The notes under the pieces are model-generated. The model had not been told where the DNA came from and did no database searches. It saw nothing but the letters and a program-made list of their open reading frames with translations. Positions 1,610 to 30,714 of a stretch of DNA of 34,692 nucleotides are shown piece by piece. A program made the position numbers and the translations under genes. The DNA comes from a virus. Location: positions 1-34,692 of IMG/VR virus record IMGVR_UViG_3300029258_000663; one strand, given 5' to 3'. Position 1 is the first letter of the stretch; each line of letters opens with the position of its first letter.

Positions 1610-1857
1610 GCAGCAAAGATGAGACGTTTGGCACACTAGATAGGCTCATTGCACGCTACAAAGGGGAGCCACCCACGTATGGCCCTGAAACCCCAGTTGA
1701 GGAACGTGTGATGATGTACGCACAGCTACTGGGCGCTGAGGACCCATACCAGGCAGTGCTGCATCCTGACCGGCTAGACCAGGTACTGAGCAACACACTG
1801 CCTGACTGGGTGCTGCCCAGCGGCTTTGGCAAGCTGGAGATTGAGGACCTGCGCTGA
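1606..1857 (+). CDS. hypothetical protein, 83 aa
   Basis: The start ATG at 1606 overlaps the stop of the MuF gene (ATGA), implying translational coupling; a longer in-frame start at 1555 would overlap much more and is less likely. The product is small and acidic, with a helical N-terminus (DETFGTLDRLIARYKGE) and a C-terminus ending EIEDLR. I do not recognise the family. Its place directly after the head morphogenesis gene suggests a structural or assembly accessory. It is the last gene before an internal promoter at 1869. Confidence 0.65.
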   Translation: MSSKDETFGTLDRLIARYKGEPPTYGPETPVEERVMMYAQLLGAEDPYQAVLHPDRLDQVLSNTLPDWVLPSGFGKLEIEDLR

Positions 1858-1868
1858 ATAGCTAAAGG

Positions 1869-1897
1869 TTGACAAATGGCTGCCGATGGTATAGGGT
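1869..1897 (+). promoter_or_regulatory. sigma-70-like promoter with dyad over the -10
   Basis: TTGACA (1869-1874), a 17-bp spacer and TAGGGT (1892-1897). TAnnnT -10 boxes are usual in actinobacteria. A perfect inverted repeat GTATAG-N6-CTATAC (1889-1906) overlaps the -10, an operator-like placement. It lies 30 nt before the gene at 1927 and would let the small accessory genes be expressed apart from the head operon. Confidence 0.6.
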
Positions 1898-1926
1898 AAG
1901 CTATACGCAACCACAGGAGCGGCACA

Positions 1927-2136
1927 GTGAAGATGTCAGACGGCAGAGGCTCACGCAATTTGGACTTCCACACTGAGCGATGCAATGGTGACAGCCACGG
2001 TGCTTTCTTTTTCACCAGTGAATTGCCTGACGGCCCTGGGCCTGCCCCAGGATTGTGGTTTTTGCATACGTGCAAGCACTGCGGCACCAAGACCTGGCGC
2101 AACACTAAGGGTGAGCGGTTGCCATGGCAAGAGTGA
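1927..2136 (+). CDS. small zinc-ribbon-like hypothetical protein
   Basis: 69 residues from GTG 1927 (or ATG 1933), with AGGAG at 1914-1918 as ribosome binding site. It contains a HTCKHCGTKTWR knuckle at about residues 47-58 and one more Cys near residue 19, so it may bind one zinc ion. First gene behind the 1869 promoter. The family is not recognised; small zinc-knuckle proteins recur through this genome (28039, 30280, 33565, 34557). Confidence 0.6.
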   Translation: MKMSDGRGSRNLDFHTERCNGDSHGAFFFTSELPDGPGPAPGLWFLHTCKHCGTKTWRNTKGERLPWQE

Positions 2137-2363
2137 AGCAGTACCCAAGCAAGCCATTGGTCATCAATCTTGACCTAGTGCGTGAAAACCCAGCAGGGCT
2201 GCCGCACGGTGATGTGCACCTGGTGCTCAATATCAAGTGGGCACGTAAGCGCACGGTTACGCTGTGTGGGCTGACTACTGAGGACCTGCGCACATTGGGC
2301 AGCCCATTCAATGGGTGGGCAGAGGTGCTATGTGACGCCTGCGCAGAAATCATTGCCCAATGA
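2124..2363 (+). CDS. hypothetical protein, 79 aa
   Basis: ATG 2124 overlaps the previous gene by 13 nt. The product has a beta-rich middle (DVHLVLNIKWARKRTVTLCG), a predicted helix (TTEDLRTLGSPFNGW) and ends with VLCDACAEIIAQ, a CxxC pair. It is co-transcribed with the gene before it. A strong promoter follows its stop within 2 nt. Function is unknown; a small DNA- or protein-binding accessory is possible but not shown. Confidence 0.6.
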   Translation: MARVKQYPSKPLVINLDLVRENPAGLPHGDVHLVLNIKWARKRTVTLCGLTTEDLRTLGSPFNGWAEVLCDACAEIIAQ

Positions 2364-2364
2364 C

Positions 2365-2393
2365 TTGACACTGGTATTGTGCTGTGCTATATT
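2365..2393 (+). promoter_or_regulatory. near-consensus sigma-70 promoter
   Basis: TTGACA (2365-2370), exactly 17 bp, then TATATT (2388-2393). This is the best consensus promoter in the window. The expected start of transcription, 7 nt after the -10, falls on the A of the ATG at 2400, so the mRNA is probably leaderless. Confidence 0.75.
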
Positions 2394-2399
2394 TGGGGT

Positions 2400-2537
2400 A
2401 TGAGCAAGAGCAAAAACACAGCAGCCACCATCATGGTCCTCATTTCACTGGCCTTTGGAAACGGCCCACAGACCATGCCTGCCGATTACTCAGCCATCAC
2501 CCAGGCCACCCAGGCCACCACACAGGAAGTTGCCTAA
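2400..2537 (+). CDS. small hydrophobic protein, probably from a leaderless mRNA
   Basis: 45 residues. The N-terminus (MSKSKNTAATIMVLISLAFG) is a short basic stretch followed by a hydrophobic segment, so it could be a membrane or signal-anchor peptide; the rest is Gln/Thr/Ala rich. The ATG coincides with the predicted +1 of the 2365 promoter and has no Shine-Dalgarno sequence, and leaderless translation is common in actinobacteria. The alternative is that this is only a leader for the gene at 2539, whose start follows the stop by 1 nt. Confidence 0.45.
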   Translation: MSKSKNTAATIMVLISLAFGNGPQTMPADYSAITQATQATTQEVA

Positions 2538-2538
2538 C

Positions 2539-3495
2539 ATGACCGCACTTGATTACGCAGACCCCATTGCACTGGCTCAGGCGAATATGGAATGGCGTGA
2601 CGCCACCACTGACCTGCGCACAGAGCTATTTGACAAGGCTTATGCCAAGCATGAGAAGGCCATACGCAAAGAGCGTGAGGCCAAGGTGCAGCCACAGAAC
2701 GTGTGGACACGCAAGCAGATTGACCTGGCCAAGAATATGGCCAGGGCTGACGTGCTCCAGGCACTGAGCAAGATGCGTGAGCACAATGGCGTGATGAATC
2801 CTGTGGCCAATGACCCTGAATGGGGACTGGACAGCGCAGAGGCCAAGCAGGCTGCGGCACCCACTCCCAACAAGTATGCAGGCAAGTGCGTGAAGTGCCA
2901 GGGCTGGATTGAGGCCAAGGCTGGCAAGCTGGTCAAGGTCAATGGGCGCTTTGGTGCTCAGCACATTGATGAGTGCCCCAAGGCACAGCCCAGGCCCAAC
3001 CGCTATGCAGGAATGTGCGGCACGTGCGGTCAGGAAGTCAAGGCCAATGAGGGACGCATTGAGAAGTCAGACGCAGGCCAGTGGGTCACCTTCCACCTTG
3101 ACGGCCAGTGCCCTGAGGTCAGCGCAGAGGCCACTGAGGCAGCGCAAGACGGCCTGGACCTGAGCGGGCTGGTGCCTGGCTACTACGCAGTGCCTGGTGG
3201 TACACGGCTGAAGCTGGCCATCAATCACGGGCGCAAGGGCGGCAAGTGGGACGGCTACACCTTTGTGAAGGATGCCAGTGAGTACGGTGCAGGCAAGCGC
3301 TACGGCATGCAGCGCCCAGGCCAGGCCTACCGTGGCCAGGTGCAGGATGAGCTTGCTGAAATCCTCAAGGACCCCAAGGCTGCCATGGTGGCATACGGCA
3401 AGCTGGTGGGACGCTGCGGCGCCTGTGGTCGCAAGCTGGAGGATGAGGCCAGCGTGGCTGCAGGAATCGGCCCTGTGTGCGCTGAGAAGTTCTGA
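2539..3495 (+). CDS. zinc-knuckle protein with DUF6011-like C-terminus
   Basis: 318 residues from ATG 2539, preceded by AGGAAG; an upstream in-frame ATG at 2455 lies inside the previous small gene and is rejected. Three Cys modules are visible: CVKCQGW then DEC, CGTCGQ then GQC, and a terminal CGACGRKLEDEASVAAGIGPVC. The last matches the pattern of DUF6011, a zinc-binding module common in actinophage proteins. The N-terminal 100 residues are helical and charged. A nucleic-acid-binding role is likely from the zinc knuckles, but no catalytic motif is visible. It is unusual to find such a gene between head morphogenesis and scaffold genes. Confidence 0.7.
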   Translation: MTALDYADPIALAQANMEWRDATTDLRTELFDKAYAKHEKAIRKEREAKVQPQNVWTRKQIDLAKNMARADVLQALSKMREHNGVMNPVANDPEWGLDSAEAKQAAAPTPNKYAGKCVKCQGWIEAKAGKLVKVNGRFGAQHIDECPKAQPRPNRYAGMCGTCGQEVKANEGRIEKSDAGQWVTFHLDGQCPEVSAEATEAAQDGLDLSGLVPGYYAVPGGTRLKLAINHGRKGGKWDGYTFVKDASEYGAGKRYGMQRPGQAYRGQVQDELAEILKDPKAAMVAYGKLVGRCGACGRKLEDEASVAAGIGPVCAEKF

Positions 3496-3546
3496 GCATG
3501 AGCAGGAGGTACATCATGCAGTGAGGCGGTAAATCGTCTCTAGTAC

Positions 3547-3571
3547 GTGCCCTGGGCCTGGCCTGGGGCAC
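3547..3571 (+). terminator. strong GC hairpin before the capsid operon
   Basis: GTGCCCTGGGCC (3547-3558) faces GGCCTGGGGCAC (3560-3571). With two G-U pairs this forms about a 10-bp stem with a short loop, followed by TTGCTATTT. It separates the accessory block from the capsid transcription unit and sits 13 nt upstream of a late motif. Confidence 0.6.
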
Positions 3572-3583
3572 TTGCTATTTGCT

Positions 3584-3598
3584 CCAGTATTCTCTTAG
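3584..3598 (+). promoter_or_regulatory. repeated late motif CCAGTATTCTCTTAG, copy 1
   Basis: First of five copies of a 14-15 nt motif found in gaps ahead of transcription units. Here it lies 36 nt before the scaffold gene and just after a hairpin. TATTCT within it looks like a -10 box, but no shared -35 is seen among the copies, as with phage late promoters read by a phage sigma factor. Confidence 0.65.
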
Positions 3599-3634
3599 TT
3601 GACGGCATGAGGCACCACAAGTGGAGGTACCGGA

Positions 3635-4228
3635 ATGGCTGAAGCAGCCAAGAATGCTGACGCAAATGATGCGGCAGGCAACGTGACAGATGAAGATAAG
3701 GGCACGGATAGTGGCAAGGGCGCTGAGGAATTTGATCAAGAGCGGGCCATGGCCACAATCCAGAAACAGCGTGAGTCCGAAAAGGCAGCCAAAGAGCGGG
3801 CCAAAGAGCTAGAGGCAGAGCTAGCCAAGTACCGTGAGGCTGAGGACGCAAAGGCTGAGGCTGAGAAGGCCCTAGAGGTGAAGGTGGCAGAGCGAGACGC
3901 CACCATTGCAGGACTGCAGGATGAGATTGCAGACCTGCACGTGAAGCAGAGTTTTGAGCAGGAGGCACTGGCCAAGGGAATTGCAGACCCTGGGCTGGCG
4001 TATCTTGCAGCTAAGGCGCAAGGCGTGCTTGGTACGTATGACCCCAAGGTGGGTGAGGTAGGTGACCATGACTGGGACAAACTGGCGGAGAAATACCCCA
4101 GCTTTGCGGCCCAGGAAAGTGGTACTGGTAACAAGACTGGAGATGCTGGGGCACGTGGCAAAGGTGGCACGTTGTCTGAGGCGGAACAGTTTAACCAGGC
4201 GGTGCGTGGCGCATTTGGGCGCCGGTAA
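3635..4228 (+). CDS. capsid scaffolding protein
   Basis: 197 residues, directly upstream of the major capsid gene. The N-terminus is acidic and disordered, residues about 30-110 form a long charged coiled coil (heptads rich in Ala, Glu and Lys), and the C-terminus is short and basic (NQAVRGAFGRR). That is the usual build of siphovirus scaffolds, whose C-terminal helix contacts the capsid protein. No protease motif is seen, so maturation may not use a scaffold-fused protease. First gene behind late motif copy 1, with GGAGG before ATG 3635. Confidence 0.85.
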   Translation: MAEAAKNADANDAAGNVTDEDKGTDSGKGAEEFDQERAMATIQKQRESEKAAKERAKELEAELAKYREAEDAKAEAEKALEVKVAERDATIAGLQDEIADLHVKQSFEQEALAKGIADPGLAYLAAKAQGVLGTYDPKVGEVGDHDWDKLAEKYPSFAAQESGTGNKTGDAGARGKGGTLSEAEQFNQAVRGAFGRR

Positions 4229-4300
4229 GGGCAGCAGACAGAGGCTGACCCAGGCAAGCACTGGCCTGTGAGAAGTAGAGCTATCTAGGAGGATAGACAA

Positions 4301-5314
4301 ATGGCAAGAGTACAGCGTGGAGACGTTGCGGGCATTGTTGTCCCTACTCCCGTTTCTGACGCAATCTTGCGTGGAGTGGCAGACCAGTCCATCATTCAGC
4401 GCCTGGCCAAGCCCGTGCCCATGAGTACCAATGCAAAGACCTTCCGTGAGGCGGAGGTCACTGGTGCTAATGCGTACTGGGTTGGTGAGGGTCAGCGGAA
4501 GCAGACTGACCAGCCCACCATGCAGCAACTGGCCTGGACCCTGACCAGCGCTGAGATTGCGGTAATCATCCCGATTGATGAGAATGTCGTGGACGATGCT
4601 GAAGCAGACCTTTTCGAGCTTTATAAGCCAGCCATTGAAACGGCTGTGGCTAACAAGCTGGATGCTGCTGCTATGTTCGGTAATGACGCTCCCACTGCGT
4701 GGGGCGCTGCCGGTACTGGCGCTCACATCGTGCCGGATGCTCTCATTGTCGGTAATGACTTTGAGGAAGATGCCAGCCCCACTGACCAGGAACTTTTGGA
4801 CCTGATTAGCGGCACTGGCGCCACCCCGGCAACCCCTGACGGCGCACTGGAGGCGCTTGAGGCTGACCTGTATGACCCGTCCCGTATCGTGGCGTACAAC
4901 CGTTTCAAGTCCCGTCTGCGTAACCTGAAGGATGCTGATGGGCGGTATTACTTCCAGGGCAGCAACGGCCTGCCGATTGTCCCTGAGGACCTTTTCGGCA
5001 TCGGCATTGAGTTTGCTTCCCATGAGAAGTCCACCAACGTCTGGCAACCGTCTGAGGCGCACCTGATTATGGGCGCCTGGGAGCAGGCATGGCTGGGTAC
5101 CCGCCAGGGACTCACGTACAAGGTCTTTGACCAGGGCGTGATTACTGACGGTGCTGGCAATGTCCTGTACTCGCTCATGGAGCAGGACATGGTTGCGCTG
5201 CGTGTGGTTGCACGCTACGCATTCAAGGTCATTGCGGATGACACTGCTGACGGCGCTAGCCTTGCCTCTGGTGAGGATTATCCGTTTGCTGTGGTCCGTC
5301 CGTACACGGCCTAA
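4301..5314 (+). CDS. major capsid protein, HK97 fold
   Basis: 337 residues, near the usual length of HK97-type capsid proteins lacking a delta domain. Family features: an N-terminal arm with IVVPTPVSDAILRGVADQSIIQRLAKPVP, an E-loop region with WVGEGQRKQTDQ, a spine helix (DLFELYKPAIETAVANKLDAAAMFG), and a late GTRQGLTYKVFDQ and ALRVVARYAFKV strand pair. It forms the capsid shell. Codon choice differs from neighbours (many CGT, CCG and TCC codons), fitting a very highly expressed gene. AGGAGG lies at the right distance before ATG 4301. Confidence 0.92.
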   Translation: MARVQRGDVAGIVVPTPVSDAILRGVADQSIIQRLAKPVPMSTNAKTFREAEVTGANAYWVGEGQRKQTDQPTMQQLAWTLTSAEIAVIIPIDENVVDDAEADLFELYKPAIETAVANKLDAAAMFGNDAPTAWGAAGTGAHIVPDALIVGNDFEEDASPTDQELLDLISGTGATPATPDGALEALEADLYDPSRIVAYNRFKSRLRNLKDADGRYYFQGSNGLPIVPEDLFGIGIEFASHEKSTNVWQPSEAHLIMGAWEQAWLGTRQGLTYKVFDQGVITDGAGNVLYSLMEQDMVALRVVARYAFKVIADDTADGASLASGEDYPFAVVRPYTA

Positions 5315-5330
5315 GGCCAGGAGGTAACAC

Positions 5331-5660
5331 ATGGCTAACACAGTTAGTAAGGGCACTGCCATTTCAGGCTTTGACCTGAGCATCAGCGGTGATGACGTGG
5401 TTGTGGGGCCTGGCCTCATTGACGGCGTAGCAGTTGATGGAGCCACCCTTGACGTTTCAGCGCTTGCGCTTGGTGACGGCACCCATGCCATCATCTTTGA
5501 CGGCTCTGACGTTGTGGGGCAGTTGGACGCTACGGCGCTCACTGCAGGTGAGGTCAAGCTGGGTGAGTTTGTGGAGGCCACAGCGGCTGCCACTTCCGTG
5601 ACTTTCACGGATCGTGGAGAGTCCGCCAAGGTCACACTTGACGCCAGCGTGAGCCTCTAA
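5331..5660 (+). CDS. small capsid-associated protein, possible decoration protein
   Basis: 109 residues, beta-rich and without Cys, 16 nt after the capsid gene with CAGGAGG before ATG. Strands such as GDDVVVGPGLIDGVAVDGATLDVSAL and the Asp/Gly/Val/Ala-rich composition suggest a compact beta protein of the kind that decorates capsids or caps tails. Its codon usage resembles the capsid gene, suggesting similar high expression. A 13-bp hairpin follows. The decoration role is inferred from position and composition only. Confidence 0.65.
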   Translation: MANTVSKGTAISGFDLSISGDDVVVGPGLIDGVAVDGATLDVSALALGDGTHAIIFDGSDVVGQLDATALTAGEVKLGEFVEATAAATSVTFTDRGESAKVTLDASVSL

Positions 5661-5684
5661 AGGCACGCACACAAACATCTAACA

Positions 5685-5723
5685 CTAGGGCCTGGCCTGG
5701 CAACACGCTGGGCCAGGCCTTAG
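5685..5723 (+). terminator. 13-bp hairpin after the capsid genes
   Basis: CTAGGGCCTGGCC (5685-5697) pairs with GGCCAGGCCTTAG (5711-5723), 13 pairs including one G-U, with a 13-nt loop, followed by TCTATTC. A likely terminator or attenuator that keeps capsid mRNA above the level of the connector genes; it could also protect a 3' end. Confidence 0.7.
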
Positions 5724-5742
5724 TCTATTCTGGAGGATTGAC

Positions 5743-6078
5743 ATGGCGACAGTTTCGGCAGAGGCCAGTGCGTACACTGGACTCAATGCCACTTACAACG
5801 CTGCCAGTGGTGGCGGTGACAAGGTGAAGGCGGGCGGCAACACATTCCTGCACGTCAAGAATGGCAGTGGCGTCTCAGTCACCTGCACGCTGACCACGCC
5901 AGGTGACGTGGCTGGGCTGGCTATCGCTGACCCTGTGACCACGGTACCGGCTGGTGAGGAACGATTCATTGGCCCACTGGACGTGGCACAGTTTGCAGAC
6001 CCTGCTGACAGCAACCTGGTGGCGATTGCGTGGAGCGCAACCACTAGCGTGACCTTTGCGGCAGTCTACCTGCCCTAA
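5743..6078 (+). CDS. small beta-rich virion protein, possible decoration protein
   Basis: 111 residues from ATG 5743 with TGGAGG upstream. It reads as a small beta sandwich: GGDKVKAGGNTFLHVKNGSG, SVTCTLTTPG, VTTVPAGEERFIGP, then NLVAIAWSATTSVTFAAVYLP. This pattern, an NTFLHVKNGSG-like strand followed by a VPAG turn, is familiar from small proteins encoded between capsid and connector genes in many siphoviruses. No catalytic motif. A capsid surface role is inferred from position. Confidence 0.65.
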   Translation: MATVSAEASAYTGLNATYNAASGGGDKVKAGGNTFLHVKNGSGVSVTCTLTTPGDVAGLAIADPVTTVPAGEERFIGPLDVAQFADPADSNLVAIAWSATTSVTFAAVYLP

Positions 6079-6092
6079 GTACGGAGGACGTA

Positions 6093-6482
6093 ATGGCAAC
6101 ATACCTGACGGCTGATGAGCTAGCACGGCTGGAGCGGATGACTGGTGAGGCCCACAAGTCTGCTGCTGACCGGACGCTGGATGAGGCTGACCTGGATGAT
6201 GCTGCGTTTCAGGCACGCACGGTGGATGCTGACGGTGAGGCCCCACTGAATGCTGACGGCACGGCCAATACGGATTACACCAATACGGTGGACCTGTATA
6301 AGGCTGCCAGCATTGCGTGGAATCAGAAAGCGGCCATCTTTGCTGAGCAATTCAGCTTCACTGCTGACGGCGCTACCTTCCAGCGTAATCAGGCATACCA
6401 CGCTGCGGTGGCGCAGGCCAAGCGGTACGCTGACATGAGCAGCGGCTGGACCCCTGTGGCGCCTGTAGCTGAGGGTGCCTAA
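6093..6482 (+). CDS. head-tail connector (adaptor) protein
   Basis: 129 residues, mostly helical, with a helix-turn-helix-turn pattern and conserved-looking DLYKAASIAWNQKAAIFAEQFSFTADGATFQRNQAYHAAVAQAKRY. The FTADGATFQRNQ stretch before a final helix is common in gp6/gp15-like adaptor proteins that form the ring under the portal. Preceded by ACGGAGGACG. Its stop overlaps the next start (TAATG), so the connector genes are translated as a coupled set. Confidence 0.75.
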   Translation: MATYLTADELARLERMTGEAHKSAADRTLDEADLDDAAFQARTVDADGEAPLNADGTANTDYTNTVDLYKAASIAWNQKAAIFAEQFSFTADGATFQRNQAYHAAVAQAKRYADMSSGWTPVAPVAEGA

Positions 6483-6877
6483 TGGCTGGCGGGCTGGCGC
6501 TGACATCGGCGCAGTTGACGGCCATGAGGCAGTCCCAGCAGGACCACCATCCTGACCTGGTGACCATCACAAGGCTGCAGCGGGCGGCTGACGGCAAAGG
6601 TGGCTGGACCACTGGCACGGCACTGACCGTGGCCAAGGACGTGCCCTGTACCATCACACCTGGTGCTGAGGTCATGCTGGGCGGGCAGGCTGACCGTGGC
6701 CTAGAGATTGAGCAGTGGATGGTGACGTTCCCCTGGGGCACTGACGTGCAGGATGAGGACGTGCTGGAGTGGTCTGCAGAGTCCATACAGCTACAGGTGA
6801 GCAATGCCAAGGTTGCCAAGAGCAACGGCACGGCTGTGCGCTGCACGGCTGAGGTAGTAGATGGAGTGCCATGGTAA
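6482..6877 (+). CDS. head closure protein
   Basis: 131 residues. After a short N-terminal helix it is all beta: HHPDLVTITRLQR, GWTTGTALTVAKDVPCTITPG, GLEIEQWMVTFPWGTDVQDEDVLE, then AVRCTAEVVDGVPW. The PDLVTITR strand followed by a charge-rich barrel and a final strand is the usual head-closure (stopper) layout, and actinophage homologues of this type lie in the same position. It closes the portal channel after packaging. ATG 6482 overlaps the preceding stop by one base. Confidence 0.72.
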   Translation: MAGGLALTSAQLTAMRQSQQDHHPDLVTITRLQRAADGKGGWTTGTALTVAKDVPCTITPGAEVMLGGQADRGLEIEQWMVTFPWGTDVQDEDVLEWSAESIQLQVSNAKVAKSNGTAVRCTAEVVDGVPW

Positions 6878-7269
6878 CACAGCCCAACCGTATCAGCATA
6901 GCCTGGGTCAATGAAACTGAAGTCATTGGCAATCTGCGCACCATCAGCAGCAGTCTGGATGTGCGCAGTGAGGCTGTCATCAGTCACCTGGCTGATGACT
7001 TTGTGCGTGTGGCCAAGGACCTGGTGGCCAAGGAGGAGCATGAGGTTGAGAAGTCCATACGCAAAGAGCGCAGAGGTGACGGCTGGTACATCGTGGCTGA
7101 CCGTGGCGGCGTGCGTGATGAGGCTGCGGTATATCTGGAGATTGGAACACACAAGATGGCGCCACGGCCCTACATGGTGCCAGCATCACGGCTGGTGCTC
7201 GCAAGTGGTGGCCTTTACAAGGCGCAGAAAGCGGCTGGCGGGTTGCTAGGGCGCACTAATCTGAAATAG
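6871..7269 (+). CDS. HK97 gp10-like neck protein
   Basis: 132 residues, overlapping the previous gene by 7 nt. The diagnostic block is YLEIGTHKMAPRPYMVPASRLV (residues about 89-110), close to the E-x-GT-x-x-M-x-x-x-P-x-x-x-PA signature of the HK97 gp10 family. An earlier helical region ends in a basic KSIRKERRGDGWYIVADRGG hairpin. These proteins act at the head-tail joint. Family call is strong; exact place in the neck is inferred. Confidence 0.82.
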   Translation: MVTQPNRISIAWVNETEVIGNLRTISSSLDVRSEAVISHLADDFVRVAKDLVAKEEHEVEKSIRKERRGDGWYIVADRGGVRDEAAVYLEIGTHKMAPRPYMVPASRLVLASGGLYKAQKAAGGLLGRTNLK

Positions 7270-7279
7270 GAGGCGGCAA

Positions 7280-7705
7280 ATGGATTACGATGGCGCATGG
7301 CAAGTGATGTACGATGCACTCAGGGCTGGGCTAGATGCTGCTGGGCTGAATAGCGTGACTTTGGCAGCGGTCCACTCGCAGGACAGCCAGACGGCAGGTG
7401 AGGCCCTGGAGCCACCCTATGTCATATACAGCCAAGAGCGTGAGATAGGCATAGGCACCATGGGCAGTGGGCCTAACAAGGTGGCTGAATCTGGCTGGCG
7501 TATCACGGCACGTGCCAGGGACCTGCAGGAGATTCTGGACATTGCCACGGCGGTGACTGACAAGCTGGAGCTTGAGGACATTGCCACCACAGCAGATGGA
7601 TATGAAACCACTGCAGTGGAGCTAATTGGTGCTCAGACCCTGTGGGAGCAGGACAGCAAACTGCATGCATTCCTGCTGCGTATCAACTGGGAGCGCAGCA
7701 AGTAA
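7280..7705 (+). CDS. tail terminator protein
   Basis: 141 residues, after AGGAGG. The layout fits tail terminators/completion proteins: an N-terminal helix (YDALRAGLDAAGL), PPYVIYSQEREIG, a long amphipathic helix (DLQEILDIATAVTDKLE), then a final beta strand (AFLLRINWER). It caps the tail tube and joins it to the head closure ring. It lies between the gp10-like gene and the tail tube gene, as expected. The unit ends here; a late motif follows after 6 nt. Confidence 0.72.
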   Translation: MDYDGAWQVMYDALRAGLDAAGLNSVTLAAVHSQDSQTAGEALEPPYVIYSQEREIGIGTMGSGPNKVAESGWRITARARDLQEILDIATAVTDKLELEDIATTADGYETTAVELIGAQTLWEQDSKLHAFLLRINWERSK

Positions 7706-7711
7706 GGCCTG

Positions 7712-7726
7712 CCAGTATTCTCTTAG
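7712..7726 (+). promoter_or_regulatory. repeated late motif CCAGTATTCTCTTAG, copy 2
   Basis: Exact copy of the motif, 85 nt before the tail tube start. It is followed by TGAA, as in copies 3 and 5 (copy 4 has ATGAA). It gives the tail tube gene its own start of transcription, reasonable for one of the most abundant tail proteins. Confidence 0.65.
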
Positions 7727-7750
7727 TGAAGCACAGGCGCACGTAAGGGC

Positions 7751-7772
7751 GCACCACTCTAGTTTGTGGTGC
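7751..7772 (+). other. 7-bp hairpin in the tail tube leader
   Basis: GCACCAC (7751-7757) pairs perfectly with GTGGTGC (7766-7772) around an 8-nt loop, between late motif copy 2 and the tail tube gene. There is no U-tract, so an mRNA-stabilising 5' hairpin is more likely than a terminator. Confidence 0.45.
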
Positions 7773-7811
7773 CTGAGGCAGGCGCTGCTAGCACTTAGGA
7801 GGTGCAGACAT

Positions 7812-8213
7812 ATGCCCGCATATCGTGGCAAGGACCTAGAGGTGGTTTTCGCTGGTGTGACCATCAGCGGTGATGGGCGCTCTGTCTCATACGAGGAAAG
7901 CGCTGACATCCTTGATGACACCACATACGGTGATGACAACCGGACCAAGCAAAGCGGACTCAAGGACGGCTCAGGCTCATTTGAGGCCCTGGACCAGACT
8001 GGTACCTGGAGCGCTGCGTGGCAGGCCATTCAGCCTGGCGACAGTGACACCATGGCCATCTACCCTGAAGGCAATACCAGTGGCAAGCGGTCCACTACCT
8101 TCACGGCAGTTATTGGCTCACGCTCTGTGGACTTCCCGTATGACGGCCTGGCCACTCTCAGCATGAGCTTTGAGATTTCTGGCGCTGTCGTTGAGGGTAC
8201 GGTATCCGTATAA
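7812..8213 (+). CDS. major tail tube protein
   Basis: 133 residues from ATG 7812, preceded by TTAGGAGGTG; a longer in-frame reading from 7626 would run back through the previous gene and the late motif and is rejected. Beta-rich with GVTISGDGRSVSYEESADILDDTTYGDDNRT, a long Gly/Ser hairpin (KQSGLKDGSGSFEA), and a final strand set ending ISGAVVEGTVSV, as in tail tube proteins that stack as hexamer rings. Located between the tail terminator and tail chaperones, with its own late motif and a following attenuator hairpin. Confidence 0.82.
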   Translation: MPAYRGKDLEVVFAGVTISGDGRSVSYEESADILDDTTYGDDNRTKQSGLKDGSGSFEALDQTGTWSAAWQAIQPGDSDTMAIYPEGNTSGKRSTTFTAVIGSRSVDFPYDGLATLSMSFEISGAVVEGTVSV

Positions 8214-8226
8214 GGTAGGCAAACCT

Positions 8227-8256
8227 GCTGGGGCTGGCATCTGGTCAGTCCCCAGC
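8227..8256 (+). terminator. attenuator hairpin after the tail tube gene
   Basis: GCTGGGG (8227-8233) and CCCCAGC (8250-8256), 7 perfect pairs with a 16-nt loop, followed by TTTACTT. It sits between the abundant tail tube gene and the chaperone genes and probably lowers read-through. Confidence 0.55.
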
Positions 8257-8275
8257 TTTACTTAGGAGGTAAGAG

Positions 8276-8551
8276 GTGGCAAAGGCAGACCTGCGTAAGG
8301 TTGAGTACGGTGACGGGCAGCACCTGGTGTATGACGCTGACATGAAGATGGGTGCACTGCGGCGCATCATGTCGGCAGGCCAGACTGGTGACATTGAGGT
8401 GATGTTTGAGGCATTCACTGGCATTGTCATGGAGTGGTCATACAAGGGTGACCCCCGTAAGATGGAGGCGTGGGATGACCTGCGCAAATCTGAATTCACG
8501 GCGCTCAATGAGGCCCTGATGGAGGACTTGCAGGCCCTGGGGGAAGGGTAG
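8276..8551 (+). CDS. tail assembly chaperone, short form
   Basis: 91 residues from GTG 8276, with AGGAGG upstream. Position between tail tube and tape measure, small acidic helical product and an overlapping -1 frame make this the first of the two tail assembly chaperones (lambda G-like). It would coat the tape measure protein during tail assembly. Helices such as MGALRRIMSAGQTGDIEVMFEAF and DLRKSEFTALNEALMEDL fit. It ends at TAG 8549-8551 just after the G-rich stretch where the frameshift is expected. Confidence 0.8.
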   Translation: MAKADLRKVEYGDGQHLVYDADMKMGALRRIMSAGQTGDIEVMFEAFTGIVMEWSYKGDPRKMEAWDDLRKSEFTALNEALMEDLQALGEG

Positions 8552-8730
8552 GGCGTGCTGCTGTAGTTGCTCACTTCAGCGGAGAACCCACGCCATATGA
8601 ATGGGTGCGCTTGCAAGTCTGTGAGCGCATGGGCTGGACGTTTCAGGAGTACGATGATACGCCAGCCAAGGATATGTATGAGGCCCTGGAGCTATGGAGC
8701 AAGGAAAAGCTGCTGAAGGGCACCAAATAG
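8276..8730 (+). CDS. tail assembly chaperone, long form by -1 frameshift
   Basis: The -1 frame is open from the run CTGGGGGAAGGG (8537-8548) to TAG 8728-8730. It reads about 60 residues, including HFSGEPTPYEWVRLQV and DMYEALELWSKEKLLKGTK. There is no good start codon with a ribosome site for this second part alone. A -1 shift on the G run would make a G-T type fusion, the arrangement conserved in most long-tailed phages. The slip site is not the textbook XXXYYYZ heptamer; GGGGGAA (8539-8545) is the most likely place. The fusion is strongly expected from position; the exact slip codon is not certain. Confidence 0.72.
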
Positions 8731-8746
8731 GGCAGTAGGCTTCCAC

Positions 8747-8847
8747 CACAGCCCACCACGTAGCCCACCTGGGCCGTTTCGGTATCGTCTGGTATCGGGA
8801 GGCCTGGGTGGGCTGTCGCACGCTTACAGGCCATCTGGTGGGCTGTG
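8747..8847 (+). other. two nested inverted repeats before the tape measure gene
   Basis: The outer pair CACAGCCCACCA (8747-8758) and TGGTGGGCTGTG (8836-8847) is perfect over 12 bp. The inner pair AGCCCACCTGGGCC (8762-8775) and GGCCTGGGTGGGCT (8801-8814) pairs over 14 with two G-U. AGCCCACC and GGTGGGCT are shared by both pairs, so alternative pairings exist. It may end transcription after the chaperones; a late motif follows 15 nt later. Confidence 0.6.
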
Positions 8848-8862
8848 AGGGCATAACTTGCC

Positions 8863-8877
8863 CCAGTATTCTCTTAG
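8863..8877 (+). promoter_or_regulatory. repeated late motif CCAGTATTCTCTTAG, copy 3
   Basis: Exact copy, 49 nt before the tape measure start. Downstream it continues GTGAAAGCCAC, identical to copy 5 near 30010, so these two copies match over 25 bases (with 1 nt less on the left in copy 5). Confidence 0.65.
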
Positions 8878-8926
8878 GTGAAAGCCACACAAGGCCCCAA
8901 GGTTAGCTGCTGCATGGAGGTGAGGC

Positions 8927-10939
8927 GTGGTACTGGCTGATGAGCTACTGCTAAAGGTACGTGCTGATACCAAGGGTGCGGAAAAGTCCGTAACTGGGTT
9001 TGCGGAGCATACCCGCACCAAGATGAAGCAGGTTAGCCAGTCATTCACCAATGCTGGGCGCTCGTTGACCACAAAGCTGACGCTGCCGATTGTCGGCCTG
9101 GCCACAGTGGCTGTCAAGAAATTCTTTGCCCAGGAAGTGGCTACTGCCAAGCTGCAGAGTAGCTTTGAATCCATGGGCGCATCAGCGTGGACATCCATGG
9201 ATGCACTGCAGGGACTGGCTGACAGCATCCAGGCCACCAGCACCTTTGGTGATGAGGCGGTGGAGTCCATGCAGGCGGTGCTGCTGACCTTTGGTCAAAT
9301 CAAGAATCAGGGTGAGGGTGCCAATGCTGTCTTTGACCGCACTACGCAGGTGACTGCTGATATGGCAGCCCTCATGGAGACTGACCTGCAGAGCGCAGCC
9401 ATCATGCTTGGCAAGGCGCTCAATGACCCAGTGGCTAACCTGGGTGCGCTGTCACGTTCTGGTGTGCAATTCACAGCAGACCAGAAAGAGCTTATCAAGG
9501 GCCTGTGGGAATCCGGTGACGCACTGGGCGCTCAGAAGGTCATCCTTGAGGAACTGGAACGCCAGTTTGGTGGCACGGCTGAGGCGGTAGCCAATACAGC
9601 TAGTGGTAAGTGGCAGCAGGCCATGAATAAGATGGGTGACAGCATGGAGATTGTTGGCGGCATCATTGCACCCATCGTGGTTGAGGTTGCCGACAAAATC
9701 AGTGAGCTTGCGGTGAGTTTTGACGGCCTGGATGAGAAATGGCAGCGGCTGATTGTGGGTGCCTCTGGCGGTGCTGCAGCCATCGGCCCACTGCTGCTGG
9801 TACTAGGCAACGCAGTCAAGGTGCTGACATTCCTGACCACTCCCATAGGACTCATCATTGCGGCCATTGCTGGCGTGGTCTGGGTACTGCACCAGATGGG
9901 CGTGGAATGGGAGGACGTTGTAAGCTGGATTCAGAACGTATTTCTGCCCACAGTGCAGCCCATCCTTGAGGAATTCCAGGCCATAGTCAGTGAGGTGCTG
10001 GGTAAGGTCACAGCTTGGTTTGAGGAAAACTGGGACACCATCATGGAAGTGGTTGAGAAGGGTGCCACGTTCCTGATGGACACATGGAATGAAATATGGG
10101 CAGTTATTGGGCCAGTCATTGAGAAGCTGGTGGCCTTTGCGGTTGAGGAAATCGGCGCCCTAATTCAGTGGTTCATTGACAACTGGCCACGCATCCAGGA
10201 AGTCATTGAGAAGGTCATGGGCATCATTCAGCGATTCTGGGAGCGCATCTGGGGCACAATCAGTGAATTCATTGGCCCCATCTTTGACGGCATCATGCGC
10301 ACCATCAGTGGCGCACTAGACATCATCAAAGGCGTCATCCAGACAGTGCTCAGCATCATCACAGGTGACTGGGGCGCTGCATGGGACGGCATCAAGCAGG
10401 CTGTCAGTGGCGCATGGGATGCCATCAATGGCGCAGTGGATACCGCATGGCAGACGCTGCAAGCTACGTGGGATACCATCATCAGCACCTTGGGCCTGGC
10501 CTGGGATACATTCTGGGGCGGTCTGGGTGAGGGCATTTCCGCCATCGGCACTGCGGTTGTGGATGCACTCAAGGGCGTCATAAATGCGCTCATTGGTGCA
10601 CTTGAGGATGGCGTCAACTTTGCGCTGCGTGGTCTACAGAAAGCCATAGATGCTGCAGACGTGATTGCTGGCCCATTTGTCAACTTCCCAGATGAGATGT
10701 TTACCCCCATCAGCATTCCAAGGCTGGCAGAGGGCGGCATAACCACAAGTGACGGCCCTGTGCGTGTGGGTGAGCGTGGCATTGAGGTGCTTAACTTGCC
10801 TGCGGGCACCAGCGTGCAACCACTGACTGGTAGCAACGGCAACGGTGCCACTGTCTACATTGACAAGATGATGGGCGGTGACCCCAAGGCAACGGCTGAT
10901 GAAATTGGCTGGGAATTCACTAAGCGTGGAGTGGCGTAA
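8927..10939 (+). CDS. tape measure protein
   Basis: 670 residues, the longest gene in the window, from GTG 8927 after GGAGGTGAGG. It sets tail length and exits through the tail during DNA injection. Features: an N-terminal helical region with FTNAGRSLTTKLTLPIVGLATVAVKKFF and TFGDEAVESMQAVLLTFGQIKNQG, typical of phage tape measures; hydrophobic segments at about 280-330 (LLLVLGNAVKVLTFL, GLIIAAIAGVVWVL); then Trp-rich repeats (WNEIWAVIGPVIEKL, WERIWGTISEFIGPIF, WGAAWDGIKQAVSGAW). At roughly 0.15 nm per residue the tail would be about 100 nm. The C-terminal GIEVLNLPAGTSVQPL is a usual tape-measure ending. No lysozyme or peptidase motif seen. Confidence 0.9.
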   Translation: MVLADELLLKVRADTKGAEKSVTGFAEHTRTKMKQVSQSFTNAGRSLTTKLTLPIVGLATVAVKKFFAQEVATAKLQSSFESMGASAWTSMDALQGLADSIQATSTFGDEAVESMQAVLLTFGQIKNQGEGANAVFDRTTQVTADMAALMETDLQSAAIMLGKALNDPVANLGALSRSGVQFTADQKELIKGLWESGDALGAQKVILEELERQFGGTAEAVANTASGKWQQAMNKMGDSMEIVGGIIAPIVVEVADKISELAVSFDGLDEKWQRLIVGASGGAAAIGPLLLVLGNAVKVLTFLTTPIGLIIAAIAGVVWVLHQMGVEWEDVVSWIQNVFLPTVQPILEEFQAIVSEVLGKVTAWFEENWDTIMEVVEKGATFLMDTWNEIWAVIGPVIEKLVAFAVEEIGALIQWFIDNWPRIQEVIEKVMGIIQRFWERIWGTISEFIGPIFDGIMRTISGALDIIKGVIQTVLSIITGDWGAAWDGIKQAVSGAWDAINGAVDTAWQTLQATWDTIISTLGLAWDTFWGGLGEGISAIGTAVVDALKGVINALIGALEDGVNFALRGLQKAIDAADVIAGPFVNFPDEMFTPISIPRLAEGGITTSDGPVRVGERGIEVLNLPAGTSVQPLTGSNGNGATVYIDKMMGGDPKATADEIGWEFTKRGVA

Positions 10940-17540: not shown

Positions 17541-17581
17541 CACTCACACTAACTGCGGCTCATTCGTTTGTATAGTGATGA
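17541..17581 (+). promoter_or_regulatory. 41-bp repeated element, copy 1
   Basis: Starts CACTCACACTAACTG and ends TTGTATAGTGATGA. Two more copies of equal length lie at 20296 and 30674. TATAGT (17571-17576) is a good -10; the hexamer 17 bp upstream (ACTAAC) is not a sigma-70 -35. The conserved 12-mer CACTCACACTAA may instead be an activator or alternative-sigma site. A possible start codon of the next gene lies inside the element. Confidence 0.6.
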
Positions 17582-20295: not shown

Positions 20296-20336
20296 CACTC
20301 ACACTAACTGTGTCTCATGCGCTTGTATAGTGATGA
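20296..20336 (+). promoter_or_regulatory. 41-bp repeated element, copy 2
   Basis: CACTCACACTAACTG through TTGTATAGTGATGA, the same length as copies 1 and 3. TATAGT is at 20326-20331. The SSB-like gene begins 24 nt downstream with its own GGAGG, so here the element reads simply as a promoter. Confidence 0.65.
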
Positions 20337-25658: not shown

Positions 25659-26333
25659 TTGGCACAGGGTGGTGATACTACTGCCACTGCTGACTTATAC
25701 TGGCGCATGCGGCCACTGGTGTATCATATCAGTCTGAAATACGGCCATAGGCATGGTGACCACAAGACAGAGGCCAGGCAGGAAATATTGCAGCAGGCGT
25801 GGAGTGGGTTGGCAGAGGCCATGAGTCGCTGGGACCCAGACCACCCAGTGGGCAAGACGTTCTGGAGCTATGCCAGCACCAGCATCACATTTGCTGTCAA
25901 AATGCACCTGGGTGCAGTCACTGGCGGTGTGCCGATGTCTAGGTACAATTATGAGCAGTATGTGCGCATAGTGCAATCACTAGAGGCTGCAGGCGTAGCT
26001 GACTGGGAAACGCTCAGCAGGGATGCATTGCACGCCATCACAGGTGTACGTGGTGCTCAGGACATCATGCGGGCACTACAGAGTAAGCAGGGGCATATAG
26101 TTGATGATGATTTGCGCACCAGTGCTGCCAGTGCTGAGGATGCGTACCTGGATGAGATGGCACAGGAGCAGTGGGCTGAGGTTGTGGCCTGGCTGCGTGG
26201 CCTGGAGGCCATACCATTTGAGCGCTGGGAGGAAGCAACGTACTGGAAGCTGGAGCAGTTGGGGCTGGCAGGCACCATTGAGGCCCAGCAACTAATTGAC
26301 AACCTGGACACCATACTGGAGGTGACAGCATGA
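25659..26333 (+). CDS. sigma-factor-like protein
   Basis: 224 residues from TTG 25659 (ATG 25707 is the alternative). Residues 14-90 resemble sigma-70 region 2: LYWRMRPLVYHISLKYG, EARQEILQQAWSGLAEAMSRWDPDHPVGKTFWSYASTSITFAVKMHLG, where the DP-x-x-x-x-G-x-TFWSYA-x-x-x-I block matches the core-binding and -10 segment (as in FDP-x-x-G-x-F-x-x-YA). A clear region 4 helix-turn-helix is not seen in the C-terminal half, which is helical and acidic. It may steer host RNA polymerase on its own or with a partner. It precedes the resolvase gene with ATGA overlap. Confidence 0.62.
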   Translation: MAQGGDTTATADLYWRMRPLVYHISLKYGHRHGDHKTEARQEILQQAWSGLAEAMSRWDPDHPVGKTFWSYASTSITFAVKMHLGAVTGGVPMSRYNYEQYVRIVQSLEAAGVADWETLSRDALHAITGVRGAQDIMRALQSKQGHIVDDDLRTSAASAEDAYLDEMAQEQWAEVVAWLRGLEAIPFERWEEATYWKLEQLGLAGTIEAQQLIDNLDTILEVTA

Positions 26334-26755
26334 GACTAGCAATCGACCCTGGCAAGGGCACAGGCATTGCGTGGCGGACTGAGGACGGTGAACTGCGGGC
26401 ACTACAGTGGCCAGGCGAATCCATCTGGGTGGTGCTCAATGGCTTCCACAGCACACACGGCATTACAGAGCTTGTGGTTGAGTCATTCATCAGCAGGCCT
26501 GGGCCAGCAGTCAACCTGAGCGCCACTGAGACTATCGGGCGCATTTTCGCATGGTGTGAGACTGAGGGCATTGACCCTATCATGCAAACGCCAAGCGCTG
26601 CCAAGGTACGTGTGACAGATGACCGGCTGCGGCAGGCAGGCGCCTGGATACGTGGCCAGAAACACGCACGTGATGCGTACAGGCACTTGCTGCTGCGTGA
26701 GGATAGGTGTGGTGAGATTGACCTGGAGCAGTGGCCCAAGACTTTGCCCAAGTAA
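26330..26755 (+). CDS. RuvC-like Holliday junction resolvase
   Basis: 141 residues. RNase H-fold motifs: LAIDPGKGTGIAW (Asp6), ITELVVESF (Glu51), and GQKHARDAYRHLLL (His112, Asp115) match the RuvC catalytic set. VNLSATETIGRIFAWCETEGI is the helix between them. It would cut branched DNA before packaging or in recombination, fitting its place at the end of the replication genes. Ends the replication operon; the largest noncoding gap follows. Confidence 0.8.
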   Translation: MRLAIDPGKGTGIAWRTEDGELRALQWPGESIWVVLNGFHSTHGITELVVESFISRPGPAVNLSATETIGRIFAWCETEGIDPIMQTPSAAKVRVTDDRLRQAGAWIRGQKHARDAYRHLLLREDRCGEIDLEQWPKTLPK

Positions 26756-26765
26756 CTAGTCAGAT

Positions 26766-26788
26766 GTGACTATTGCAAAGATAGTCAC
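26766..26788 (+). promoter_or_regulatory. 23-bp palindrome, copy 1
   Basis: GTGACTAT (26766-26773), 7 nt, ATAGTCAC (26781-26788), perfect arms. It ends 9 nt before the -35 of the promoter at 26798. The same arms, spacer length and distance recur at 27622. A dimeric regulator is expected to bind about 56 bp before the start of transcription, an activator-like position. Confidence 0.7.
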
Positions 26789-26797
26789 TGAAACCAC

Positions 26798-26826
26798 TTG
26801 ACTTTTGTGACTGGGTGGCCGATACT
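26798..26826 (+). promoter_or_regulatory. promoter of the structured leader and secreted-protein gene
   Basis: TTGACT (26798-26803), 17 bp, GATACT (26821-26826). Predicted start of transcription is near 26833, which makes a leader of about 320 nt before ATG 27152. A half site, GTGACT, of the palindrome lies in the spacer at 26807-26812. Confidence 0.65.
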
Positions 26827-26846
26827 ACTTATACATTGATAACTGA

Positions 26847-27142
26847 ATAGAGCACTCACAGAGATTCTGGGACTTGAGAAGGACCACCTAAGCGGCTCTG
26901 AGAAACTGACCCTGACGGCTAACGACCACCAGCCAGGTTTTGACTACCTGATGCGGACCCCTGAATGAAGGACAGTGGAGAGAATTATGCGGATGCGGTA
27001 GTGAGAGAATCAAGCCCACAGTGACCAGCAGAAAGTGAAACGCTACCCAGGCGCAGTGCACGGCCCTGGGATGTAAAGTAGCCAGTAGGCAGGAATCTGG
27101 CCCAGACTCTCCGTGAGTGCTCTATCAGACCAGTTGAGCACT
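26847..27142 (+). ncRNA. structured RNA leader with switch-like alternative hairpin
   Basis: The region has no ORF. A perfect 13-bp long-range stem joins 26847-26859 (ATAGAGCACTCAC) and 27113-27125 (GTGAGTGCTCTAT). It continues inward with GAG/CTC (26861-26863 and 27107-27109) and TCTGGG/CCCAGA (26866-26871 and 27101-27106) around a 2-nt bulge. Inside are hairpins CAGGT/ACCTG (26934-26950) and GCTA-CCCAGG/CCTGGG-TAGC (27042-27082), with purine-rich joining strands typical of folded RNAs. AGTGCTC (27116-27122) can instead pair with GAGCACT (27136-27142), which abuts the AGGAGG (27143-27148) of the gene at 27152. It could be a riboswitch-like leader or a processed small RNA. No known class is recognised. 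Confidence 0.7.
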
Positions 27143-27151
27143 AGGAGGTGC

Positions 27152-27613
27152 ATGGTGAGGAAATTGATGAGGAAAACGGCTGGCGCCCTGGCGCTCTTTG
27201 TCGTGATGAGTGTGGCGCCTGCGGCAATCGCTGATGATGCAGGCACACGGTATGATGACCCCATTGGCGCAGAGTGCGCATATGACGCTGAGAGCGCCAT
27301 TGTGAGCTTTGACGTTGAGGTAGATGGTGAGGCCATCTGGAGTGTGACGCAGGACGGCAAGGTGCTCACGTATGGTGAGGCTGACAACGCACCTGCGGGC
27401 GGCTACGTGCTTGTGGTTGACATTGAGCCTGGCAGCCCTGTGACGGCCTACGCCAACGGTGACCTGCGCACCTTCACCTGTGATGACGTGCGTGAGCCTG
27501 CGGACGGCCCCATTGCTGAGGTGCTGTATGAGCCTACCGTCAGCCCCATGACATTCCTGGGCTGGTATCGTGCTCTGTACGCCAAGGTACTGGGAGCGCT
27601 GGCAGCCCTGTAG
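27152..27613 (+). CDS. secreted protein, possible moron
   Basis: 153 residues from ATG 27152, with AGGAGG well placed; GTG 27113 in frame falls in the RNA stem and is rejected. Residues 1-28 form a clear signal peptide: basic start (MVRKLMRK), hydrophobic core (AGALALFVVMSVAP) and AIA cleavage site. The mature part is acidic and beta-rich with two Cys (in GAECAYD and TFTCDD) that may form a disulfide. The C-terminus (MTFLGWYRALYAKVLGALAAL) is hydrophobic and could contact the membrane. Own promoter, palindrome and structured leader. Exported phage proteins of this kind often change the host surface or block superinfection; that role is inferred. Confidence 0.7.
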   Translation: MVRKLMRKTAGALALFVVMSVAPAAIADDAGTRYDDPIGAECAYDAESAIVSFDVEVDGEAIWSVTQDGKVLTYGEADNAPAGGYVLVVDIEPGSPVTAYANGDLRTFTCDDVREPADGPIAEVLYEPTVSPMTFLGWYRALYAKVLGALAAL

Positions 27614-27621
27614 CCAGCAAG

Positions 27622-27644
27622 GTGACTATATCGGAAATAGTCAC
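27622..27644 (+). promoter_or_regulatory. 23-bp palindrome, copy 2
   Basis: GTGACTAT (27622-27629), 7 nt, ATAGTCAC (27637-27644), with one more G-C pair outside each arm. It lies 9 nt before the -35 at 27654, the same geometry as copy 1, so the two promoters probably share one regulator. As RNA it could also act as a 9-bp hairpin terminating the secreted-protein gene. Confidence 0.7.
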
Positions 27645-27653
27645 CCCGATGTG

Positions 27654-27682
27654 TTGCACGCCTGGGGCATCTGTGGTATCGT
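27654..27682 (+). promoter_or_regulatory. promoter of the small-gene cluster
   Basis: TTGCAC (27654-27659), 17 bp, TATCGT (27677-27682). Start of transcription is expected near 27689, giving a short leader to ATG 27712. Paired with palindrome copy 2. Confidence 0.55.
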
Positions 27683-27711: not shown

Positions 27712-28032
27712 ATGAGCTACCGATACACCAAGCGCCAGGCATACGATTACCACGCAAACACAGTGGCCCATAGTGACCACAGCATTGAGCGGCACCTGGG
27801 CCGACTCACTGACCTTACTGCTGATGAGCGGGCACTGGTCAAGGACCGTGCACTGCAGGCAGCAGCCCACCCCAAGAATCGTGAGCACACTGGCGTGCGC
27901 ATCTTCACAGGCCACGGCCAGCACGTCTGGGCAGTGGTGGCAGGGCGCACAGTCAAGACCATCATCACCACACCTGAGGGCCAGCACCTTGACCAGACCA
28001 GCAAGTGCAACCGTTACGCCATCGTAGGATAG
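27712..28032 (+). CDS. hypothetical protein, 106 aa
   Basis: ATG 27712 with AGGAG 7 nt upstream; an in-frame start at 27622 lies in the palindrome and is rejected. Basic, His-rich N-terminal half (SYRYTKRQAYDYHANTVAHSDHSIERHLGRL), helix DERALVKDRALQAAAH, then a beta segment (GVRIFTGHGQHVWAVVAGRTVKTIITTP). No family recognised. First gene of the small-gene run reading to 30009, behind its own promoter; a candidate for the regulator that binds the palindromes, but no helix-turn-helix is evident. Confidence 0.65.
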   Translation: MSYRYTKRQAYDYHANTVAHSDHSIERHLGRLTDLTADERALVKDRALQAAAHPKNREHTGVRIFTGHGQHVWAVVAGRTVKTIITTPEGQHLDQTSKCNRYAIVG

Positions 28033-29289: not shown

Positions 29290-29446
29290 CCTACCCATTG
29301 ATGAGGCGGCAGTGGAGGCGGCACGCATGCTGCAGGCTGAAATGTGGCGCAACGGGCGCCAGCGGCCCACATACGCCAATAGCAGGATGCCTGAGGACCA
29401 AGGGCGCAGGCAGTTGGCGCAAGAGCTACGCAGGCGGCTGGGTTGA
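29276..29446 (+). CDS. hypothetical protein, 56 aa
   Basis: ATG 29276 overlaps the previous gene by 14 nt. Helical (IDEAAVEAARMLQAEMWRNGRQ) with a basic end (GRRQLAQELRRRLG). Its stop overlaps the TTG start of the sigma gene (TTGA), so it is coupled to sigma factor synthesis. Confidence 0.55.
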   Translation: MSTTSLPIDEAAVEAARMLQAEMWRNGRQRPTYANSRMPEDQGRRQLAQELRRRLG

Positions 29447-30009
29447 GGGACCTGGAGGACGCTGCCTGGCACGCAGCACGGAAGTACGGCCAGGACGCTG
29501 ATGACGTGCTGCAGAGCACGGCAGAGGCGCTGCTGAAAGCTGGGCACAACCTGAAGACGGTTGACCGGCCACTGGTGTACGTGTACGCAAGGAATGCGGC
29601 CATTGACATCTGGCGACGTGAGTCACACAGCACGCCATGGGATACCACCACAGATGCTCAGGGCAATGACGGCATCACAAGGCACACTCAGATGCTCCCA
29701 GACAGCCAGACTGAGGTTGACCTGGTGATGACACTGGAGGCCATCGTGCTGCCCCACATGGGCGCTCTGGAGGGCACACAGCGTGACGTGGCAGTGGCGT
29801 ACTACCTGGATGGGCTGGAAGGCCCTGAGATTGCGCAACGCCTGGGCCTGACCCCTGCCAATGTGCGCTACCATCTGAGCAAGGTACGCAAGACCCTGGG
29901 TGAGCATGAGGGTGACCTAGCCATCTATCGTGGCTGGGCGCACCCAGGAGCACACAAACCACTGAGGCGCCCACAGGCGTCTGAGGCCTTAGGGGCAGTA
30001 TTCTCTTAG
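29443..30009 (+). CDS. ECF-like sigma factor
   Basis: 188 residues from TTG 29443. Region 2: AARKYGQDADDVLQSTAEALLKAGHNLKTVDRPLVYVYARNAAIDIWRRES, with the D-x-x-DVLQ-x-T helix and the Y-x-x-ARNAAID-x-WRR helix of ECF sigma factors (-10 recognition). Region 4: TQRDVAVAYYLDGLEGPEIAQRLGLTPANVRYHLSKVRKTL, a clear helix-turn-helix for -35 DNA. A 60-residue linker joins them. The last codons and stop form part of late motif copy 5. It is the best candidate to read the CCAGTATTCTCTTAG sites. Confidence 0.82.
   Translation: MRDLEDAAWHAARKYGQDADDVLQSTAEALLKAGHNLKTVDRPLVYVYARNAAIDIWRRESHSTPWDTTTDAQGNDGITRHTQMLPDSQTEVDLVMTLEAIVLPHMGALEGTQRDVAVAYYLDGLEGPEIAQRLGLTPANVRYHLSKVRKTLGEHEGDLAIYRGWAHPGAHKPLRRPQASEALGAVFS
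29996..30009 (+). promoter_or_regulatory. repeated late motif, copy 5 (14 of 15 bases)
   Basis: CAGTATTCTCTTAG, with G instead of C at the first position. Its TAG is the stop codon of the sigma gene. It lies 85 nt before the gene at 30095, the same distance as copy 2 to the tail tube gene. It continues GTGAAAGCCAC as in copy 3. Confidence 0.65.
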
Positions 30010-30673: not shown

Positions 30674-30714
30674 CACTCACACTAATCTGCGCTCATCCGG
30701 TTGTATAGTGATGA
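30674..30714 (+). promoter_or_regulatory. 41-bp repeated element, copy 3
   Basis: CACTCACACTAATCTG through TTGTATAGTGATGA, 41 bp as in copies 1 and 2. TATAGT is at 30704-30709. The gene at 30736 follows with AGGAAGG. An ATG at the end of the element opens only a 12-codon ORF here, so the start of translation is not a fixed part of the element. Confidence 0.65.

Follow-up and report, generated by a model that had tools for sequence, protein, structure and literature searches.

The locus studied here raises the question of why one palindrome, GTGACTAT-N7-ATAGTCAC, stands on both sides of a single cargo gene in a phage genome, each time ahead of a promoter-like sequence, and whether it acts as DNA or as RNA. 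The window, meaning the whole stretch of DNA that was analysed, is a complete virus record of 34,692 bases, classed as linear. Its capsid matches that of Bifidobacterium phage Bbif-1 at ~33%, and its DNA polymerase A matches those of mycobacterial and Streptomyces phages at 27-29%. The proteins appear to group the virus, at a distance, with phages of actinobacteria, and actinobacteria are probably its hosts.

Close relatives spanning 25-30 kb of the phage were not found, and one contig (L009) is 99.97% identical to the phage record over 715-9532 only. Searches of the viral contigs with the DNA polymerase, the primase-helicase, the cargo protein and the D1 motif gave no relatives, a search with RuvC gave only the distant contig L008, and capsid alignment gave none among the genome contigs. 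A useful relative, G001 (a contig of L055, 41,284 bases), was found via capsid alignment, with 58% in the best capsid segment, and it carries the polymerase, the sigma-like gene and the RuvC-like gene in the same order as the phage. The RuvC-like gene, 56% identical to G001 7213-7671, is the last gene common to both before the palindrome/cargo unit. In G001, an unrelated 228-aa gene follows 63 nt after the RuvC gene, and neither the palindromes, nor the leader, nor the cargo protein are present in the record of this syntenic relative. Relatives of the cargo protein were likewise not detected in phage records, viral contigs or 396 Actinomycetota genomes, and its structure model has low confidence (pLDDT 54.5). 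The gene between the two sites had been described as cargo-like in the initial annotation, which agrees with the lack of both gene and sites in G001; judged from this comparison of sequences, the palindrome-flanked unit is variable cargo. Two sigma-like genes lie nearby (25659-26333 and 29443-30009); by profile, only region 2 was recognised in one of them, and both regions 2 and 4 in the other. The gene at 25659-26333 keeps its place before RuvC in G001.

Both copies of the palindrome are exact at the positions given by the initial annotation, 26766-26788 and 27622-27644 (Table 1), and their arms are perfect over 8 bp in copy 1 and 9 bp in copy 2. That annotation did not mention that both lie 8-10 nt past stop codons, copy 1 beginning 10 nt after that of the RuvC gene and copy 2 beginning 8 nt after that of the cargo gene, nor did it mention the leader with its inverted repeat. 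A shuffled genome contains on average 0.85 perfect 8-7-8 palindromes; two perfect 8-7-8 inverted repeats with identical arms appeared in none of 300 dinucleotide shuffles, and a same-arm pair with any loop of 3-12 in one of 150. Further copies were absent from the window at up to 3 mismatches (0.07 expected per shuffled window) and from the whole phage record at up to 2 mismatches.

Table 1. Positions of the features at the palindrome-flanked locus, numbered along the window.
Feature	Position	Strand	Remarks
RuvC-like Holliday junction resolvase gene	26330..26755	+	PHROG 1770, E 3e-7; phrog_1981, E 1e-17
Palindrome copy 1, GTGACTAT TGCAAAG ATAGTCAC	26766..26788		Sequence inspection, shuffles, arm comparison
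Candidate promoter 1	26798..26826	+	-35 TTGACT 26798-26803, 17-bp spacer, -10 GATACT 26821-26826; sequence match only
Leader/RNA region closed by 25-nt inverted repeat	26843..27128	+	Arms 26847-26871 and 27101-27125
41 codons with gene-like codon usage	26843..26965	+	End TGA 26966-26968; no ATG/GTG/TTG start
Alternative hairpin 27116-27122/27136-27142, re-using the closing 3' arm	27116..27151	+	Prediction only
Cargo gene, 153 aa	27152..27613	+	Signal-peptide-like N terminus, beta-rich middle, C-terminal helix 132-152
Palindrome copy 2, GTGACTAT ATCGGAA ATAGTCAC	27622..27644		Arms extend to 9 bp, 27621-27645
Candidate promoter 2	27654..27682	+	-35 TTGCAC 27654-27659, 17-bp spacer, -10 TATCGT 27677-27682; sequence match only
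First gene of the downstream unit, 106 aa, no assigned function	27712..28032	+	Structure model of low confidence, pLDDT 59.3

The comparison of the two copies indicates what has been conserved. As the initial annotation had it, the arms are the same (16/16 bases) and the spacers differ, with 2/7 bases shared by the loops, and the 40-nt flanks are 22-25% identical, as in random sequence. Fixed arms with random loops and flanks are what selection would leave on a sequence read by a protein, and not what selection on base pairing or a recent duplication would leave. Selection on pairing is disfavoured because pairing would let the members of a pair change together, and the arms are the same at all 16 bases.

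The promoter-like sequences next to the palindromes add a constant phase. Both -35 hexamers start exactly 9 nt past the palindrome and both promoters have a 17-bp spacer. Candidate promoter 1 is ordinary by itself (9/12 consensus; 6 such sites found vs 7.7 expected in shuffles) and candidate promoter 2 is weak (7/12 consensus). The joint match, with one shared offset and spacer, was reached by 0.2% of shuffled flank pairs and by 0.07% of random window pairs. Our first expectation that this geometry was due to chance was thus rejected by the shuffle test, although p ~0.002 is post hoc, with the threshold set to the observed values, and is supportive rather than proof; with that proviso, the identical promoter geometry claimed earlier for both sides is borne out. 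When the transcription start is placed 7 nt past the -10, the predicted starts are at ~26833 (promoter 1) and ~27689 (promoter 2), and the centre of the palindrome falls at ~-56 in both copies. Promoter 2 leads into a short ordinary leader of 23 nt with GCAGGAG ahead of the ATG at 27712. The assigned promoters may be wrong, given the poor consensus match of promoter 2 and the presence in the phage of two further classes of promoter-like motifs. A D1 motif-like candidate -10 region at 26829 was the best non-D1 match in the window, barely above the next, and is not claimed here.

Considering these observations, we propose that the two palindromes are, on balance, probably copies of one DNA site, recognised by a regulator that is sequence-specific, two-fold symmetric and most likely phage-encoded and that would co-control both units. 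Copy 1 would front the promoter of the cargo unit, consisting of the leader and the gene for a secreted or anchored protein, and copy 2 that of the next operon, from 27712 onwards. The regulator would bind both promoters at ~-56, on the same face, and would switch the two units in concert, whether through activation of weak promoters or through a block on them. Activation is slightly favoured over repression: the centre at ~-56 and the weak hexamers allow activation, and repression via inverted repeats at phage promoters has also been proposed in print. That a protein binds, which protein this is and whether it activates or represses are inferred here. The prediction of a real protein-binding site in the initial annotation gains support from the fixed arms, the random loops and flanks, the constant promoter phase and hairpins at background strength. 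On the other hand, the presence of two copies only counts against an operator, and the position next to stop codons also fits a function at transcript ends.

The palindromes would, in the latter case, act as RNA, forming transcript-end hairpins that would either end transcription of the upstream message or protect it, and that would insulate the promoter that follows. Both indeed lie shortly past stop codons and ahead of promoters, and such a role has to be taken seriously because strong hairpins (-20 to -30 kcal/mol) often immediately precede other promoter-like motifs, both in the phage (window 3585, 8864 and 17541) and in G001 (5063 and 37286); G001 also has an 8-7-8 hairpin 19 nt past a stop. 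The palindromes themselves, however, fold with -11.1 and -12.5 kcal/mol, where 60-mers drawn from the window as background average -12.7; they are AT-rich with 3/8 pairs being G-C, and no U tract follows them, so that the stable G+C-rich hairpin and U run of an intrinsic terminator are lacking. Pairing alone would also not require the arms to be identical in sequence. A DNA site is preferred because the RNA hairpins are no stronger than background, and we regard a terminator-like role as unlikely. That the palindromes bracket a unit missing from the syntenic relative would also suit recombination or insertion sites flanking a mobile cargo cassette, yet sites of tyrosine and serine recombinases must share their central overlap, and the 7-bp centres here have only 2/7 bases in common. 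Besides, no target-site duplication is visible, and the scanned gene products, a subset of the ORFs, included no recognisable recombinase, which leaves this origin very improbable.

If a protein reads the palindrome, it could be encoded by the phage or by the host. In 84,980 prokaryote genomes (one per species), the exact motif gave 39 matches in scattered taxa, with ~60 expected by our arithmetic from 16 fixed bases and 257 billion bases, and with no clustering by taxon or gene. With up to one mismatch, 396 Actinomycetota genomes gave 3 matches vs 5 for the reversed control pattern. The many random host-genome copies that the initial annotation had named as telling against the site were thus found in neither set. 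A conserved host operator is rejected at the exact-match level only, as degenerate host sites would escape such a search. Phage cargo genes are often under host control, and if the phage had captured operators that a host regulator recognises, the cargo would follow a host signal; the host genome may be missing from the collections. With the exact motif at chance among the 84,980 genomes and at control level with one mismatch among the Actinomycetota, we consider such a capture quite unlikely. Since the motif occurs at chance level in these genomes, the protein reading the palindrome is probably phage-encoded. Near the sites, no helix-turn-helix family was recognised except the two sigma-like proteins, and small phage genes without assigned function are the remaining regulator candidates. 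Five stretches of viral contigs contain the palindrome; neither blastn nor tblastx showed any of them to be related to the window, and they were rejected as relatives and attributed to chance. Those of L003 and L005 look like one locus in opposite orientation. In one of these unrelated contigs (L001, 12041-12108), CTAGTGAC(TATA) half sites form a small array about the palindrome, and this is probably that virus's own set of operators.

The proposed operator pair can be compared with known systems of phage regulation. The extended start-associated sequences (ESAS) of Cluster K mycobacteriophages are thought to bind an unidentified regulator, with repression suggested (PMC3203893, PMC11373665). 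Like the palindromes, ESAS are phage-specific repeated inverted repeats with a variable spacer, located in intergenic regions of the right, non-structural part, and repeated in the phage without being a host motif (PMC3203893, PMC11373665). They are also tied to sigma-70-like promoters with 17-18-bp spacing, and a promoter of this type in fixed relation to the repeat was found here (9-nt offset, 17-bp spacer, p ~0.002 post hoc). However, ESAS are imperfect inverted repeats with arms of 17 bp (15 bp in Adephagia) and a 4-14-bp spacer, whereas the arms here are 8-9 bp and perfect. ESAS and promoter form one motif of 46-47 bp, whereas the palindromes lie entirely upstream of the -35, and ESAS occur in at least 7 copies per genome, against two here. 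ESAS are often found near the 13-bp SAS GGGATAGGAGCCC, which had no match here at up to 2 mismatches. By analogy, the palindromes resemble ESAS in their likely working principle and are not a member of that family.

The operators of the BPs gp33 repressor are similar in that a palindromic site recurs at several promoters of the phage, within short intergenic regions, but consist of a 12-bp palindrome, CGACATATGTCG, and a second, variable half site (PMC4557955); CGACATATGTCG had no match at up to 2 mismatches. The stoperators of Cluster A are also repeated phage-specific regulatory sites outside genes, but these are 13-bp asymmetric GATGAGTGTCAAG-like sites in many copies (PMC9283540, PMC6550527), and GATGAGTGTCAAG gave 2 two-mismatch matches vs 0.78 expected, i.e., chance level. 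As putative operators, the palindromes belong to the general kind of phage-specific repeated operator and to no named family.

Other motifs are repeated in the phage and in G001. Five exact copies of CAGTATTCTCTTAG occur on the + strand upstream of gene starts (3585, 7713, 8864, 15897 and 29996), and this looks like a phage-specific promoter class; it is not conserved in L010 and L011. A 41-bp motif, CACTCACACTAA-N7-TCATNCGNTTGTATAGTGATGA, with three copies on the + strand (17541-17581, 20296-20336 and 30674-30714), is likely a second phage promoter class of the right part, and in slightly looser form it is absent from other viral contigs. On the minus strand of G001 (L061/L062), GACTATAATCA occurs seven times (5063, 19878, 26155, 27109, 30676, 35630 and 37286) with the same kind of gene spacing, and is apparently the counterpart of the repeated promoter motif in that phage. 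A second long inverted repeat, CACAGCCCACC...GGTGGGCTGTG, lies at 8741-8853, just upstream of the CAGTATTCTCTTAG copy at 8864.

The long untranslated leader is the odd part of the first unit and could still surprise. Promoter 1 feeds ~320 nt of it (26843-27151), up to AGGAGG and the ATG of the cargo gene. The arms of its inverted repeat are complementary at 23/25 positions (2 mismatches); no repeat of this type in the window is stronger, and chance would give 4e-5 in uniform sequence. The repeat is flanked by TA on both sides, and no second copy or relative of it was found. Compared with shuffles, folding of the leader is better when the closing stem is included (z -3.2), and that of the interior is worse when the stem is left out (z +2.0); nested prediction gives no stable fold for the interior. 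Between 26843 and 27128 there is no long ORF with a standard start. Searches for a known RNA family, a tRNA or a tmRNA gave no match (for the Rfam covariance models none at the gathering threshold, and none inside the leader at E up to 10), so these identities were rejected, and no relatives of the leader were detected.

The 41-codon stretch overlaps the 5' arm of the inverted repeat. Its codon usage is like that of the phage genes, a level reached by none of 20,000 background draws and by frames of genes rarely or never, and a homologue search found none. It is possibly a piece of a broken gene, a leader peptide with an unusual start, or a coincidence. The predicted alternative hairpin adjoins the Shine-Dalgarno AGGAGG (27143-27148), and in the folding model the state of the Shine-Dalgarno differs with and without the 5' arm. 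The leader could, in a reading that we hold to be improbable, be a new regulatory RNA, with a 25-bp closing helix whose 3' arm would alternatively pair as the hairpin 27116-27142 by the Shine-Dalgarno; translation of, or binding to, the 5' part with its 41 codons would then switch expression of the cargo, a surface or secreted protein, and the palindrome would be a second, transcriptional level of control. Overall, the leader is open to being a structured RNA, a piece of a broken gene, a leader peptide or a mobile terminal-repeat element, and no mechanism is claimed for it.

Within the cargo unit, the leader RNA is a separate, testable oddity. If the two palindromes are indeed a paired operator, a phage outside the well-studied mycobacteriophage clusters would tie a cargo gene to the neighbouring operon via an operator of its own, which would parallel the proposal made for ESAS elements, and a small system of this kind, with two sites and perfect arms, would make such a regulator easy to look for.
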